Source: Pseudomonadota bacterium
Lineage (GTDB): Bacteria; Pseudomonadota; Gammaproteobacteria; Burkholderiales; Casimicrobiaceae
DNA: 64,000 bases
NCBI GenBank assembly: GCA_009786025.1
Contig: WQUA01000007.1
Span: 1 to 64,000, forward strand
Reading direction: 5' to 3'
In this document: piece after piece, positions 1,149 through 32,891 of the stretch
Layout of the letters: every line of letters begins with the position of its first letter
Position numbering within the stretch: position 1 is the stretch's first letter
Position numbers and translations under genes: made by a program
The notes under the pieces: generated by a model
What the model saw: the letters and a program-made list of their open reading frames with translations, nothing else
The model's database searches: none
Told to the model about the DNA's origin: nothing

Positions 1149-1196
1149 ATGAAGAATGCTTTTCCGTTCGTTGCGCACCATCACCATCCTGACTAG
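1149..1196 (+). CDS. hisL: his operon leader peptide MKNAFPFVAHHHHPD
   Basis: ATG AAG AAT GCT TTT CCG TTC GTT GCG CAC CAT CAC CAT CCT GAC TAG: four consecutive His codons and an HHPD ending as in enterobacterial HisL; followed by an attenuator and hisG. Confidence 0.9.
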   Translation: MKNAFPFVAHHHHPD

Positions 1197-1215
1197 TCTT
1201 TCAGGACGGTGTGTG

Positions 1216-1296
1216 CTGGAAGACATTTCGAATTCTTCCGGCGGCAACGAAACGATGAGATGATCGAAACCCCTGGAAGAATTTCCAGGGGTTTTT
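1216..1296 (+). promoter_or_regulatory. his attenuator: competing protector, antiterminator and terminator pairings
   Basis: CTGGAAGA(1216-1223)/TCTTCCGG(1234-1241); AATTCTTCC(1231-1239)/GGAAGAATT(1275-1283); terminator CCCCTGGAA(1270-1278)/TTCCAGGGG(1283-1291). Confidence 0.85.
1268..1296 (+). terminator. Intrinsic terminator of his attenuator
   Basis: aacccctggaagaatttccaggggttttt, 9 bp stem plus T tract. Confidence 0.9.
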
Positions 1297-1341
1297 GCTT
1301 TAAGGGTTTTTTGTGCGGTATTTTTGTTTCGAGGAGTTTGT

Positions 1342-25674: not shown

Positions 25675-25795
25675 AAGAGTCGGAGCCGGGGAAGGTCGAG
25701 CGGCAACGGAAAAAACAACATGGAGCGAAAAAAGTTGCCGTTCTGAGATATTTCCTGTTGACAGGACGCATCGGAACCGCTAACCTTCTCCCATT

Positions 25796-25891
25796 ATGAA
25801 TAATCATTTGTCCACTTTCTCTGCTTCATTTGACGCCAACCGGGGTTGGTGGCGCTGCTCTTTTTCCGAGGGCGGGCGCCTGTACGCATAA
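25796..25891 (+). CDS. trpL: trp operon leader peptide MNNHLSTFSASFDANRGWWRCSFSEGGRLYA
   Basis: 32-codon ORF with tandem TGG TGG at 25847-25852, followed by an attenuator terminator and trpE. Confidence 0.88.
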   Translation: MNNHLSTFSASFDANRGWWRCSFSEGGRLYA

Positions 25892-25946
25892 TGAATTGTT
25901 GATTGAAGTGAACGAATGCTGAAAGCCCGCCGAGCGCGGGCTTTTT
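25851..25946 (+). promoter_or_regulatory. trp attenuator with alternative pairings
   Basis: 1:2 GGCGC(25851-25855)/GCGCC(25876-25880); antiterminator GGCGGGC(25871-25877)/GCCCGCC(25925-25931); terminator 25922-25946. Confidence 0.82.
25922..25946 (+). terminator. Intrinsic terminator of trp attenuator
   Basis: aaagcccgccgagcgcgggcttttt. Confidence 0.9.
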
Positions 25947-26018
25947 CGTGGTCTGTGCTCAAGGGGAAGAGAAAACTGAACTCCGAATGACAAGGATCAC
26001 GATGAGGACGATTGAACC

Positions 26019-27683
26019 ATGAAAACAATACAGCCCCCCAAGGCGTTGGAAAACGCGCGCGCTTCCCGGCGACCGCTGCGCAGTATCCCTGAACCGCTGG
26101 CGTTGTTCGCGTGGTTGACCGATGATGGTCGGCGACCACACACGATTCTGCTGGAATCGGCCGAACCCTCAAGTCGAAAAACGCAGAAAAGTTTGTTGGT
26201 GGTGTCGAGCGCGCTGTCGATCGAATGTCGTGGTGCTGAGGTGGTGCTGACGGCGTTGAACGCGCAGGGCGAAGTATTGTTGCCGGTGCTGGAAGAGCAT
26301 TTTGAACATTTTTCTCCGCGCTTTGAACCCTGTTCCCCCCACCTTAACCCTCCTTCGCAAGCGGGGGAGGGAACACTTAAAAACAAATTGCGCTTACACG
26401 TGCCGGTTCGCGAAACGGAAAACAAATCGGATCGGGAGCGTTTGCAGGCCGAGTCGTCGCTGACGGTGTTGCGCGAACTGACGGCGTTGTTGCGGGCGGC
26501 GTTGCCGTTGATGCCGGAAGCGGTGTTTCTCGCCGGTGTGTTCGCTTACGATCTGGTGGATCAGTTTGAGCCGTTACCGGCAACGGCGGCAGGGAGCGGG
26601 TTTCCCGATTATCTTTTTTATCTCGCCGACCAGATGGTGGTGTTTGACCATCTGACCAATTCCGGCTCTTTGTGGACATGTACTTTTACAGAATCCGATC
26701 ATGGCAAGGCGCATGAGGGCACCGAAATGGCGCTCGCCGAGATCGAAAAAAGGGTGGCTTTTTCTGCGGCGGCGCCACTGGTCAACAGTATTGCCGGGCA
26801 AGCGGCGCCGGGAGCGGTTGAAGCGGATAGAGATGACGCTGCTTTTGCGAAGCAGGTCGAGGCGTTGAAAGAACACATCGTTTGCGGCGATGTGTTTCAA
26901 ATCGTTTTGTCGCGGACGTTTTCGTTGCCGTGCAGCGATCCGTTCGCGGCGTATCGCGCACTGCGAGCATTGAATCCCAGCCCGTATTTGTTTTATATGC
27001 GCAGCAACGATTTCACATTGTTCGGCGCGTCGCCGGAGTCTGCGGTGAAAGTAGACGGAGCGACACGCGGTGTCGAAATTTCGCCGATTGCCGGAACAAG
27101 ACGGCGCGGGTTTCGTGACGACGGTAGCCTTGACGCCGATCTCGATGGTCGGATCGAAGCCGAATTGCGCCTTGATGAAAAAGAGAACGCCGAACACATG
27201 ATGCTGGTCGATCTGGCGCGAAACGACGTGGCGCGCGTGTCCAAATCCGGGACGCGCCATGTTGCCGAGTTGTTGCGTACTGTGCGCTATTCGCACGTGA
27301 TGCATCTGGTGTCACGCGTCTGCGGCGAATTGAAAGACGAACTTGATGCGCTGCATGCTTATCAGGCGAGTATGAACATGGGAACGCTGACCGGCGCGCC
27401 GAAGATCAAAGCGATGCAGTTGCTGCGTCGTTATGAAGGCGGGCGGCGCGGTCATTACGGTGGCGCGATCGGTTATCTTCGTGGCGATGGCAGTTTCGAT
27501 ACGGCGATTGTGATTCGAGCGGCGCTGGTGCAAAACGGTGTTGCGCACGTGCGCGCTGGCGCTGGCGTCGTGCACGATTCGGTGCCACTGCTGGAAGCGG
27601 ATGAAACGCGGCGCAAAGCTGAGGCGGTGTTGCGGGCCATTGCAATATCGGAAACTGAGTCAGAAGCGGGGAGAGCGTCATGA
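26019..27683 (+). CDS. trpE: Anthranilate synthase component I
   Basis: NPSPYLFYMRSNDFTLFGASPES; HLVSRVCGELKDELDALHAYQASMNMGTLTGAPKIKAMQL. Confidence 0.96.
   Translation: MKTIQPPKALENARASRRPLRSIPEPLALFAWLTDDGRRPHTILLESAEPSSRKTQKSLLVVSSALSIECRGAEVVLTALNAQGEVLLPVLEEHFEHFSPRFEPCSPHLNPPSQAGEGTLKNKLRLHVPVRETENKSDRERLQAESSLTVLRELTALLRAALPLMPEAVFLAGVFAYDLVDQFEPLPATAAGSGFPDYLFYLADQMVVFDHLTNSGSLWTCTFTESDHGKAHEGTEMALAEIEKRVAFSAAAPLVNSIAGQAAPGAVEADRDDAAFAKQVEALKEHIVCGDVFQIVLSRTFSLPCSDPFAAYRALRALNPSPYLFYMRSNDFTLFGASPESAVKVDGATRGVEISPIAGTRRRGFRDDGSLDADLDGRIEAELRLDEKENAEHMMLVDLARNDVARVSKSGTRHVAELLRTVRYSHVMHLVSRVCGELKDELDALHAYQASMNMGTLTGAPKIKAMQLLRRYEGGRRGHYGGAIGYLRGDGSFDTAIVIRAALVQNGVAHVRAGAGVVHDSVPLLEADETRRKAEAVLRAIAISETESEAGRAS
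26335..26372. repeat. Family A palindromic repeat embedded in trpE coding sequence
   Basis: ccccccaccttaaccctccttcgcaagcgggggaggga; 32/38 identity to the reverse complement of 465-502; encodes part of PHLNPPSQAGEGT. Confidence 0.8.
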
Positions 27684-28291
27684 GCAGGCCACACATTCTT
27701 TTCATCGACAATTTCGATTCGTTCACCTTCAATCTGGTCGATGCACTCTCAACGCTTGGCGCTGACATTGATGTTTATCGAAACGATATCGGCGCGGAGA
27801 CGGCGCTGAAGATTGCGCGTGAGAAATGTTCGGTGTTGATCGTATTGTCGCCGGGGCCGGGAACGCCGCATGAAGCTGGTTGCACGATCGAGCTGATCCA
27901 AAAAGCTGCAGGGCAGGCGCCGCTGCTCGGCGTGTGCCTGGGGCATCAGGCGATTGCCGAAGCGTTCGGCGGGAAAGTCGGCGCGGCAGGAACGATTGTT
28001 CACGGCAAAAAATCACGGCTGAGGCACAGCGGGCATCCGTTGTTTTCAGGGCTGCCGGAGACTTTCGATGTCGGGCGTTATCACTCGCTGGCGGTGCAAC
28101 ATTTGCCGGAAGCGTTCGACGCCATCGCGACCGGCGTTGACGACCTGATCATGGCGTTGGCGCATCGTTCGCTGCCGATTTACGGTGTGCAGTTTCATCC
28201 GGAATCGATTCTGACGACGTACGGACAAACCATCCTGAATAATGTTTTCAAATTGGCGCAGGCGTCGCAGAAAGAAGGGACTTTTTTATAA
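27680..28291 (+). CDS. trpG: Anthranilate synthase component II (glutaminase)
   Basis: LFIDNFDSFTFNLVDAL; LSPGPGTPHEAG; LLGVCLGHQAIAEAFGG. Confidence 0.95.
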   Translation: MSRPHILFIDNFDSFTFNLVDALSTLGADIDVYRNDIGAETALKIAREKCSVLIVLSPGPGTPHEAGCTIELIQKAAGQAPLLGVCLGHQAIAEAFGGKVGAAGTIVHGKKSRLRHSGHPLFSGLPETFDVGRYHSLAVQHLPEAFDAIATGVDDLIMALAHRSLPIYGVQFHPESILTTYGQTILNNVFKLAQASQKEGTFL

Positions 28292-28385: not shown

Positions 28386-29438
28386 ATGATGGATCGTATT
28401 TTGAGCAAGTTGTTGACGGGCGGCCGCCTGGATCGCGAGGAAAGCCGTGCGCTGTTCGACGCGGTGATTCGCGGCGAGGTCGGCGATGTGGAGATCGCTG
28501 CGTTGTTGGTAGCGTTGAAATTACGCGGCGAAACCGCCGAAGAAATCGCCGGTGCGGCACAAGCCTTGCGTGAGGGCGCGCGCGAATTTCCGCGGCCTGA
28601 CTATCGCTTTGCCGATATTGTGGGCACCGGCGGCGATGGCGCCGGCACCATCAACATTTCAACTGCCGCCAGTTTTGTGGCGGCGGAGGCAGGGCTGCCG
28701 GTAGCCAAGCACGGCAACCGCGCGGCGTCGTCGCGTTGCGGCGCAGCCGATTTGCTTGAACGCTTCGGTGTCAAGCTCGACATGGAACCGGCAACGGCGC
28801 GGCGCTTGCTCGACGATATCGGCGTTACGTTTTTGTATGCGCCGCATTACCATAAAGGGATTCGACACGCGATGCCGGTTCGCAAAGCGCTGGCGACGCG
28901 AACGATGTTCAACCTGCTGGGGCCGTTGGTGAATCCCGCGCGCCCGCCGGTCATGTTGGTTGGCGTTTATGATTACACTTTGTGCACGCTGGTGGCGGAG
29001 ACGCTGAGGCTGCTGGGTTGTGATCGCGCATTGGTGGTGAATGGCTTGGGTCTCGACGAAATTGCGGTGCACGGCGAAACCAACGCTGCCGAGCTGCATG
29101 AGGACGGCGAGATTACGACACATCATTTCACGCCACTCGATTTCGGTGTGCGCAAATTTCCATTGTCGTCGATTGTCGGCGGTGCGCCGGAAGAGAATGA
29201 GCAGGCGATTCGCCTGGTGTTGGGCGGCGGCGGCGATGAGGCGCATGCAGCAGCGATCGCCGTCAACGCCGGGGCATTGCTGGCGTTGGGTGGGCAAGTC
29301 GATTCGTTCAAGCAGGGATTTGCGCTGGCGATGAGCATTCTGGAAAGCGGCAGGGCGCTTGCGCGGTTGGAGGCGATGGCGCGGTTATCACATCAGTTGG
29401 GCGAAGCGGGCGGGGACACTCATGTCAGTGCTCGCTGA
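28386..29438 (+). CDS. trpD: Anthranilate phosphoribosyltransferase
   Basis: DIVGTGGDGAGTINISTAASFVAA; KHGNRAASSRCGAADLLE. Confidence 0.96.
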   Translation: MMDRILSKLLTGGRLDREESRALFDAVIRGEVGDVEIAALLVALKLRGETAEEIAGAAQALREGAREFPRPDYRFADIVGTGGDGAGTINISTAASFVAAEAGLPVAKHGNRAASSRCGAADLLERFGVKLDMEPATARRLLDDIGVTFLYAPHYHKGIRHAMPVRKALATRTMFNLLGPLVNPARPPVMLVGVYDYTLCTLVAETLRLLGCDRALVVNGLGLDEIAVHGETNAAELHEDGEITTHHFTPLDFGVRKFPLSSIVGGAPEENEQAIRLVLGGGGDEAHAAAIAVNAGALLALGGQVDSFKQGFALAMSILESGRALARLEAMARLSHQLGEAGGDTHVSAR

Positions 29439-30813
29439 AATCGTTGCACGCAAGCGTCAGGACGTTGCGGGGCGTATGGCGAAAACGCCGCTGGTCGTTC
29501 TGGAAAAACAGGCGAAGCCGACAACGCGGCGACTGGCCGAATCGCTACGCCAGCCGGGATTGCGTTTTATTCTCGAATGCAAGAAAGCGTCACCCTCGGA
29601 AGGTTTGATCCGTTCTGATTTCGATGTAAAAAAAATCGCGGAAACCTATCGCGGATTTGCCGATGCGGTTTCGGTGTTGACCGATGCGCCATACTTTCAA
29701 GGCAGTTTTGCCGATCTTGAAAAAGTGCGTGCCACGTTACCGCAACCGATACTGTGCAAAGATTTCGTTGTCGAACCGTATCAGGTGTTTGAAGCGCGCA
29801 TTCATGGCGCCGATGCAGTGTTGCTGATGTTGTCGGTCCTCGATGATGCGATGTACCGGCGCTGTTCGGAAGCGGCGCGGATGTTGTCGATGGATGTGTT
29901 GACGGAAGTGCACGACGACGAGGAACTGAGCAGAGCGCTGGCGCTTGATGCACGCATTGTCGGCATCAACAATCGCGATTTGAAAACGATGAAGATCAAT
30001 CTGTCAACGACTCGAAATCTGGCGCCGAAAATTCCGGGCGATCGTGTGATCGTGAGCGAATCCGGAATCAAAGGTCGCGCCGATATTGATGATCTCAGCG
30101 ATTTTGTCGATGCTTTTCTCGTTGGCAGCCGCTTGATGAAAGAAGCGCGACTCGATTCTGCCGTACGCGCGCTTGTTTTCGGACGCGTTAAAATTTGCGG
30201 GATGACGACGCCTGACGCGGCGCGCATCGCTTATGAGGCAGGCGCTTCGTGGGGGGGGATGATTTTTGCGCCAGAATCGCCGCGCTGTGTGAATGAAACC
30301 GTGGCGCGTGAAATCGTTGCTGCATCACCGTTACCGCTGGTCGGCGTTTTCGTCAACGACGCTCCGGAGAAGATCACGCGGTTGGTACGAGAATTGCGAT
30401 TGGCGGCGATTCAGTTGCACGGCGAAGAAACATCAGCTTATATTCACAAGCTGCGGCACGAACTTCCTGCCGGGTGCGAAATCTGGAAAGCCGTGCGTAT
30501 TGGTGAATCGCTGCCGCAGGTAGAGACGTTGCTGGTGGAAATGGGAGCCGATCGTCTGTTGCTCGACACCTATGATTCGTCGGCGCGCGGCGGCACCGGT
30601 GGGCGCTTCAATTGGGCGTTGCTGGAGCGGTTGCCGGAATCGCTACTGTCTCGTATTATCATTGCCGGCGGCATCTCGCCGGAGAATGTGCGCACGGCGC
30701 ATGGCGTCGGAAGCTATGCGATGGATGTCAATTCCGGCGTCGAGTCGGCGCCGGGGAAGAAAGACCCGGCGGCGGTGCAACGGTTGTTTTCTCGTTTGAG
30801 AGGATGTTTATGA
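29422..30813 (+). CDS. trpC: Indole-3-glycerol-phosphate synthase / phosphoribosylanthranilate isomerase fusion
   Basis: Trp[35 protein letters not shown]; Trp[28 protein letters not shown]; one continuous ORF. Confidence 0.95.
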
Positions 30814-32027
30814 GTGCGGTTTTTCCCACATCGACACTGTTGGGTGTTGAACAGGGCGCTTTCGGTCCGTTCGGTGGCATGTTTGTGCCGGAGATTCTGG
30901 TACCGACGTTGCAAGAGTTGGCGCGCGCTTTTGAAGAAGCTCAAAATGACCCGGCGTTTCAGCGGGAGTTTGACGATCTGCTCAAGGAGTACGCCGGCCG
31001 TGAAACACCTCTGTACCGCTGCCGCAATCTGACGGCGGGAACGAAAACGACGCTTTATCTGAAACGCGAAGATTTGTTGCACGGCGGCGCGCACAAGACC
31101 AATCAGGTGTTGGGGCAGGCGTTGTTGGCGCGGCGGATGGGCAAGACGCGTCTGATTGCCGAAACCGGCGCCGGGCAGCACGGTGTGGCGACAGCGCTGG
31201 TTGGCGCGTTGTTCAAAATGCAGACACGCATTTATATGGGCGACAAAGACATGAAGCGGCAGGCGCTCAATGTGTTTCGGATGCGTTTAATGGGTGCTGA
31301 AGTGGTGCCGGTCGCCACCGGCAGCGGCACGCTAAAGGATGCGGTCAATCAAGCCTTGCGTGATTGGTCGGAAAGTTACCCGAGCACACATTACCTCCTG
31401 GGGACGGCAGCAGGGCCGCATCCGTTTCCGACAATTGTGCGCGAATTTCAGCGCGTGATTGGCCGTGAAGCGAGAGCGCAAATCCTGGAACGGGAAGGGC
31501 GGCTTCCCGATGCGGCCATTGCTTGTGTCGGCGGCGGCTCCAATGCGATCGGTTTGTTTGCCGATTTTATTGATGATCGCGACGTGCGCCTGATCGGCGT
31601 TGAACCGGCGGGGCATGGGCTACATACGGGCAAACACGGCGCGACTTTGCAGAAGGGACGCCCAGGCATTCTGCACGGCAGTTACAGCTATGTGTTGCAG
31701 GACGAGCACGGTCAGGTGAGCGAATCGCATTCGATTTCTGCTGGCCTCGATTATCCCGGCGTCGGCGCGCAACACGCGCATTTATACACCAGCGGTCGCG
31801 CCGAGTATGTCGGCATCACTGACGATGAAGCGCTCGAAGCATTTCAGTTGTTGTCGCGGGAAGAAGGCATCATCCCGGCGCTGGAATCGGCACATGCGAT
31901 CGCTTATGCGCTGAAGCTGACGAAAGCCGAAACGCAACTGCGCTCGCAACCGCAACTGTTGTTGGTCAATTTGTCCGGACGCGGCGACAAGGACATTGAA
32001 CACGTAATGCAGTACATCCGGTTCTGA
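30810..32027 (+). CDS. trpB: Tryptophan synthase beta chain
   Basis: [43 protein letters not shown]. Confidence 0.97.
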
Positions 32028-32051: not shown

Positions 32052-32891
32052 ATGAAAGAAGAGAAGATGAAAACCACCCGCTATGAAAAGATGTTTGCCC
32101 GTTTGCAGATAAAAAAAGAGGGGGCGTTTATTCCTTTCGTAATGCTGGGCGATCCCGATATTGAAACGAGTGCGGCGATTATCGACACGCTGATTGCCAG
32201 TGGCGCTGATGCGTTGGAATTGGGGATTCCGTTTTCGGATGCGGTTGCCGATGGCCCGGTGATTCAGCGGGCAAGCTATCGTGCGTTGGCAACAGGGGTG
32301 ACGCCGGTGGATTGTCTGCGGTTGTTGAAGCGCATTCGCATCAAACATCCAACGGTTCCGATCGGGTTGCTGGTTTACGCCAATCTCGTCGTGCATCACA
32401 ATCCAAAAACATTTTACAAGGAAGCTGCCGAGGTCGGCGTTGATTCCGTGCTGGTGGCGGATGTGCCGGTAGGCGCAGCGGCGCCGTTCATCAAAGCGGC
32501 GAACGCGGTGGGGGTTGCGCCTGTTTTCGTTGTGCCGCCCAACGCCGATGAAGCCACTGTCCGCGAGATTGCGCAACGGGGACGCGGCTACACTTACTTT
32601 CTTGGCCGCGCTGGCGTCACTGGTGTCGATCAGGAAATGCAGACGCCGCTGCCGTCGCGATTCAAAGCATTGCAGGCGGCGGGCGCTGCTCCCGCTGTTG
32701 TCGGTTTCGGCATCTCGACCCCGGAACACATTCGCACCGCGCTTGGTGCTGGCGCTGCCGGCGCGATTGCGGGCTCAGCGACGGTGGCAATTATCGAACA
32801 GCATCTGGAAGATAAAGTTACCATGCACGAAGCGCTGGCAGTTTTTGTGCAGAAGATGAAAGCGGCGACGTTTTCAGGAATCAGGGATTAG
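32052..32891 (+). CDS. trpA: Tryptophan synthase alpha chain
   Basis: GAFIPFVMLGDPDIETSAAIIDTLIASGADALELGIPFSDAVADGPVIQ. Confidence 0.96.
   Translation: MKEEKMKTTRYEKMFARLQIKKEGAFIPFVMLGDPDIETSAAIIDTLIASGADALELGIPFSDAVADGPVIQRASYRALATGVTPVDCLRLLKRIRIKHPTVPIGLLVYANLVVHHNPKTFYKEAAEVGVDSVLVADVPVGAAAPFIKAANAVGVAPVFVVPPNADEATVREIAQRGRGYTYFLGRAGVTGVDQEMQTPLPSRFKALQAAGAAPAVVGFGISTPEHIRTALGAGAAGAIAGSATVAIIEQHLEDKVTMHEALAVFVQKMKAATFSGIRD

Follow-up and report, generated by a model that had tools for sequence, protein, structure and literature searches.

An enteric-type trp attenuator with a predicted leaderless leader transcript, apparently acquired with its operon by a Burkholderiales lineage

We consider it highly likely that the trp operon of this Casimicrobiaceae genome is preceded by an E. 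coli-type ribosome-mediated trp attenuator, which was acquired together with the whole operon, and that the transcript from which its leader peptide is translated is leaderless or nearly so. As an attenuator the element is ordinary; what is unusual is its host, its transfer and its predicted leaderless start. The analysis covers a stretch of 64,000 nucleotides (contig WQUA01000007.1 of assembly GCA_009786025.1), hereafter the window, together with a comparison set of 14 leaders from the genus plus close kin. The named relatives are metagenome-assembled Burkholderiales or Betaproteobacteria, whose isolate codes we take to be those of termite-gut surveys.

The leader ORF and the 1:2, 2:3 and 3:4 pairings of a trp attenuator can all be read directly in the sequence (Table 1), as the preliminary description had proposed when it reported a 31-codon leader peptide with TGG TGG, a 7-bp antiterminator (GGCGGGC/GCCCGCC) and a terminator upstream of trpE. 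This terminator is formed by the arms AAAGCCCGC (25922-25930) and GCGGGCTTT (25936-25944) around the loop CGAGC, with its T-tract at 25942-25946, and the end of the tract lies 72 nt before the trpE ATG, close to the 75 bp or so given earlier. Other details needed adjusting. The 1:2 stem is present, but the five pairs originally assigned to it (GGCGC/GCGCC) are too few, since the sequence and the folds give about 12 bp; the peptide, described as unlike E. coli TrpL, does differ in its N-terminal part, but the GWWR core is common to both. The attenuator is indeed complete in having all its segments, while the preliminary description was silent on the missing Shine-Dalgarno sequence and on the start about 10 nt after the -10 box. 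It also omitted two informative points, the horizontal origin of the element and its near-absent 5' UTR.

Table 1. Features of the trp leader region and operon in the window
Feature	Position	Strand	Basis or remark
-35 box TTGACA of the trp promoter	25758..25763	+	identical in 14/14 related leaders
-10 box TAACCT, 17-nt spacer	25781..25786	+	best promoter-like match in every locus
Predicted transcription start	25793..25796	+	0-3 nt before leader ATG; from the -10 position plus the usual 7-10 nt spacing
trpL leader ORF	25796..25891	+	31 codons, ATG 25796, TAA 25889-25891; translation MNNHLSTFSASFDANRGWWRCSFSEGGRLYA; without Shine-Dalgarno
Possible extra helix, 5' arm	25805..25818	+	start of leader ORF; pairs with 25905-25919
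Tandem Trp control codons TGG TGG	25847..25852	+	invariant in 14/14 leaders; WWW in six relatives
1:2 hairpin	25851..25880	+	arms 25851-25862 (5') and 25868-25880 (3'); locus folds and consensus fold
Segment 2, GGCGGGC, 5' half of antiterminator	25871..25877	+	GGCGGG invariant in 14/14
Possible extra helix, 3' arm	25905..25919	+	spacer between segments 2 and 3
3:4 intrinsic terminator with T-tract	25922..25946	+	consensus fold, two compensatory pairs; Rfam alignment
Segment 3, GCCCGCC, 3' half of antiterminator and 5' arm of terminator	25925..25931	+	CCCGCC invariant in 14/14
trpE, enteric-type anthranilate synthase component I	26019..27683	+	NCBIfam TIGR00565, 573 bits (cut-off 495); tree
trpG	27680..28291	+	profile scan
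trpD	28386..29438	+	profile scan; separate from trpG
trpCF fusion, as in E. coli	29422..30813	+	NF006945, 591 bits (cut-off 380)
trpB	30804..32027	+	profile scan
trpA (presumed)	32052..32891	+	ORF sequence

By sequence and structure, the locus matches Trp_leader. The covariance search suggested in the preliminary description gave a hit just below threshold: the Rfam model RF00513 aligned over its full length to 25841-25949 with 38.8 bits (E 1.1e-6), which is 2.2 bits under the gathering score of 41. For this reason, a default Rfam scan of the window had shown only the his leader and a tRNA. Relatives scored between 34.1 and 42.9 bits, with three congeners above 41. Moreover, 198 of 200 dinucleotide shuffles fold less well than the attenuator region (z-score -2.4), and the features that define RF00513 are present, namely a short leader ORF with tandem Trp codons (14/14) and mutually exclusive 2:3 and 3:4 pairings that end in a U-tract terminator before trp genes.

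The comparison of the 14 leaders indicates which parts of the element are maintained. No variation occurs in the ATG, TGGTGG, GGCGGG of segment 2, CCCGCC of segment 3 or GCGGG of segment 4. The second Trp codon and segment 2 are 18 nt apart in all leaders except one, where they are 19 nt apart, regardless of whether there are two or three Trp codons. The distance from the ATG to the Trp codons ranges from 24 to 51 nt, always in multiples of 3 and always in frame, which fits a translated ORF. Every leader has the same six core G-C pairs in 2:3 and the 2:3 pairs are formed in 99% of cells, while the terminator shows two compensatory pairs in the consensus fold. The WW and WWW leaders are out of register in the alignment at the 1:2 stem, so this hairpin is covered by the consensus fold instead. 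Because the TrpE proteins of these loci are only 59-89% identical, the conservation of the leader is not mere recent ancestry. Thus, the attenuator reading of the preliminary description is supported by position, frame and pairing kept in 14 leaders and by the full trp operon downstream.

An additional helix may connect the beginning of the leader ORF with the spacer that separates segment 2 from segment 3. It beats most dinucleotide shuffles in the window's leader and several core relatives, and 78.7% of its cells are paired, compared with 30-39% in slid controls; its covariation stayed within that of shuffles and was not significant. The helix occurs in most core relatives and is absent in L039 and L040. 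We keep it as a possible element only, which could default a ribosome-free RNA to termination or protect the 5' end.

The switch was modelled by folding, assuming that the ribosome covers about 15 nt on each side of the P-site codon. When a ribosome is placed on the first or second Trp codon, the RNA as far as segment 3 adopts 2:3 in all 14 leaders, with 5-6 of the 6 core pairs, and with no ribosome 3:4 forms in all 14. In this footprint model, a ribosome that has reached the stop codon of the window's leader covers the entire segment 2; in L031, L035, L036, L037, L038 and L039 it covers just 0-3 of the 6 segment-2 bases. At full length, the equilibrium folds favour 3:4 despite the stalled ribosome in all but one case, and therefore the decision must be kinetic, with 2:3 forming first, as in E. 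coli.

In the mechanism that we propose, RNA polymerase would start at or next to the leader AUG and the ribosome would load directly on the 5' end of the RNA, with no Shine-Dalgarno sequence to guide it. When tRNA-Trp is charged, the ribosome would reach the stop codon and cover segment 2, so that 3:4 would form and transcription would end at about 25946. When Trp is scarce, a ribosome stalled on the tandem Trp codons would cover the 5' arm of 1:2 and leave segment 2 free for segment 3, and once 2:3 had formed, the polymerase would read into trpEGD(CF)BA. If no ribosome were loaded, 1:2 and 3:4 would form and transcription would terminate by default.

The attenuator lies upstream of a complete trpE-G-D-CF-B-A operon, in which the last ORF is presumed to be trpA. 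Both marks of an enteric-type trp operon are present: the TrpE scores above the TIGR00565 cut-off, and trpC is fused to trpF. In the order, a TrpE of this type was found in only 3 of 399 genomes, all of this genus, and 383 others gave weaker TIGR00565 matches only. In the TrpE tree, the genus clusters with E. coli, Vibrio and Pasteurellaceae (100/100) and lies far from the TrpE of the same family. By eye, a stretch of the window's TrpE at about 26300-26400 (FEPCSPHLNPPSQAGEGTLKN) resembles an in-frame inserted repeat element, which is unexpected in this protein.

Trp_leader matches were obtained in 11/11 genomes of the genus and in none of 53 other genomes of the family. Among these matches, that of G008 (on contig C6) is false, and the trpE of this genome sits at a contig edge; a second match in G009 was rejected on reading the DNA. 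Matches also appeared in 28 other genomes of the order; the DNA was read for 18 of these, the stronger ones, and all 18 were rejected, since they lack TGGTGG and represent terminators, tRNAs or the ends of genes. The repressor that a TrpR-regulated trp operon requires was absent (PF01371) from 41 genomes, including the 11 of the genus, with a positive E. coli control, although absence from metagenome-assembled genomes is weaker than absence from finished ones, since genes can be lost or missed. With no TrpR found, attenuation is probably the main control of the operon. The simplest reading of these data is that operon, promoter and attenuator were transferred together into a lineage without the repressor; very few horizontal transfers of gamma-type amino-acid attenuators have been described (PMC3766115).

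The window also contains a His operon leader (RF00514, 79.2 bits, positions 1172-1301, forward strand) ahead of the his operon, with hisL from about 1150 (MKNAFPFVAHHHHPD). This leader occurs in 10 of 11 genomes of the genus and in 0 of 53 others of the family, which makes it a second gamma-type attenuator peculiar to the genus. We considered hisL as a further leaderless case and rejected it, because its promoter (TTGCAA-17-TAACCT) leaves a 5' UTR of about 45-50 nt, apparently a normal one.

The promoter of the trp leader and its attenuator look homologous to those of E. coli and Vibrio (RF00513). Shared features are the GWWR-type control codons, the 1:2, 2:3 and 3:4 segments, the terminator before trpE, a TTGACA-17-(TTAACT-like) promoter at the same gene (TTGACA/T-17-TTAACT in E. 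coli and Vibrio) and the trpCF fusion in the operon; L037 even has TTAACT, the -10 box of E. coli trp. The differing part is the 5' UTR. In E. coli and the readable Vibrio leaders, the ATG lies 30-48 nt after the -10 box, whereas here the usual distance is 8-10 nt; in a few Vibrio, an extra in-frame upstream ATG occurs 9-16 nt after the -10 box. The search for Vibrio and Pasteurellaceae leaders missed many loci, and hence gives no frequency. Further differences are the betaproteobacterial host, the absence of a Shine-Dalgarno sequence, the lack of a detected TrpR and, in the window, a leader stop codon that falls beyond segment 2. Transcription usually begins 6-9 nt after the -10 box, which, for an ATG at 8-10 nt, predicts a 5' UTR of 0-4 nt. 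Judging from the promoter spacing in 14/14 leaders, we infer that the transcript starts at or within a few nucleotides of the leader ATG, and translation of the peptide appears to begin right at the 5' end, without a ribosome-binding site.

A more conventional explanation is that the trp attenuator is of the ordinary kind and has a 5' UTR of normal length, being transcribed from a real promoter further upstream, so that TTGACA/TAACCT is not the start used. The start is indeed a predicted one and the -10 box is weak: TAACCT matches the consensus at 3/6 positions, and the other leaders (TAACCT, TAATCT, TAGTCT, TTAACT, TATTCT and similar, with 17-18 nt spacers) at 3-4/6, or 2/6 in L036 and L038. 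A generic promoter scan did not call the trp promoter, which is explained by the 3/6 match of its -10 box, and the E. coli trp -10 box likewise matches at 3/6. However, TTGACA is not only invariant but also held at a near-constant distance from the ATG (32 nt in 11/14 leaders, 31 or 33 nt in the other 3), and conservation, which is 0.84 in the decade of the -35 box, falls upstream to the background level (0.41-0.56), with no shared alternative promoter. The same -35/-10 pair also serves as the trp promoter in E. coli and Vibrio. Nor does any of the 14 leaders have a Shine-Dalgarno sequence before its ATG, the bases there in the window being pyrimidine-rich (CTAACCTTCTCCCATT), whereas most his and trp structural genes of the window do have one. 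We thus regard an upstream promoter as unlikely.

It is similarly improbable, in our judgement, that cis attenuation is only part of the role and that the terminated leader RNA or the peptide additionally acts in trans, as do rnTrpL and peTrpL of Sinorhizobium. In S. meliloti, the trpL ATG forms the start of the leader RNA and no transcriptional repression acts on the operon, an arrangement matching the predicted one here, and trans roles have been reported there (PMC7298713). Likewise, the residues before WW (A-N-Q/R-G/A; 25832-25846) are rather conserved, whereas the Ala codon differs at its third base, which may hint at a constraint on the peptide, and the possible 5'-end helix could stabilise a short RNA. 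Against this, only a few residues are conserved, and their bases are also engaged in RNA pairing. The likeness to S. meliloti concerns the arrangement: its trpLE(G) has an alphaproteobacterial trpE(G) and a 14-aa peptide, and the segments and promoter of the window's leader resemble those of E. coli and Vibrio. Least credible of all is that the attenuator is a degenerate relic that came with the operon and no longer responds, with a terminator that merely lowers expression. The score just below the Rfam cut-off and a host distant from the donor fit this idea, but a relic would drift, and segments 2, 3 and 4, the Trp codons, the spacing and the frame have been kept across the divergence of TrpE.

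Leaderless trpL transcripts are known in other lineages. In addition to S. meliloti, trpL1 of Streptomyces lividans (MFAHSTRNWWWTAHPAAH), which precedes trpE and carries tandem Trp codons, is transcribed without a leader (PMC8079986); this is an actinobacterial case, likened here by its arrangement. A partial literature search found no report of a leaderless trpL in beta- or gammaproteobacteria, or as an enteric-type attenuator. Closer to the genus, the metagenomic loci L042 and L043, whose TrpE are its nearest outgroup in the tree, have the same layout (TTGACA-17/18-TA...T-8-ATG), a short WW peptide and a terminator, and differ in that a DAHP synthase gene comes first, followed by trpE. From these loci, and from L183 with less certainty, the leaderless form may predate this genus. 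L183 (contig 1 of G769, at about 1048100, from another family of the class) has a WW leader (MKTQHRQLQMQLNFWWPTAFGGLSCAWIKTK) and a terminator ahead of a DAHP synthase gene, and a trpE match follows after about 1.3 kb, in a frame with one TAG; GAAGAGG close before its ATG makes the leaderless likeness less certain.

Separately, L043 carries two Trp attenuators in tandem (1620-1960) before DAHP synthase-trpE-G-D, the first with the leader MNTMNRNNNWHWWHAKRVSGGLRA, apparently leaderless, and the second with the leader MQGIKTLNNWRWLWWRWRGSLRVAHA, which has five Trp codons and AGGA before its ATG. The pattern scans of the class fixed the ATG-TGG distance at 21 nt or allowed up to 45 nt, and since the window's own 48 nt is outside both, they give no measure of how frequent leaderless trpL is. 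Among the 7 matches of the 45-nt scan, L183 looks real; the rest have no in-frame WW ORF with a terminator.

Altogether, on balance we favour the view that an enteric-type attenuator lost its 5' UTR in a TrpR-less lineage, with start codon and promoter moving together, that loading on a bare 5' AUG is the timing step which couples translation to attenuation, and that termination is the default. Classical attenuation theory holds that the first ribosome must be on the leader by the time the polymerase pauses. A leaderless leader that retains the promoter and segments of E. coli would therefore be a natural experiment on the importance of the 5' UTR and the Shine-Dalgarno sequence.
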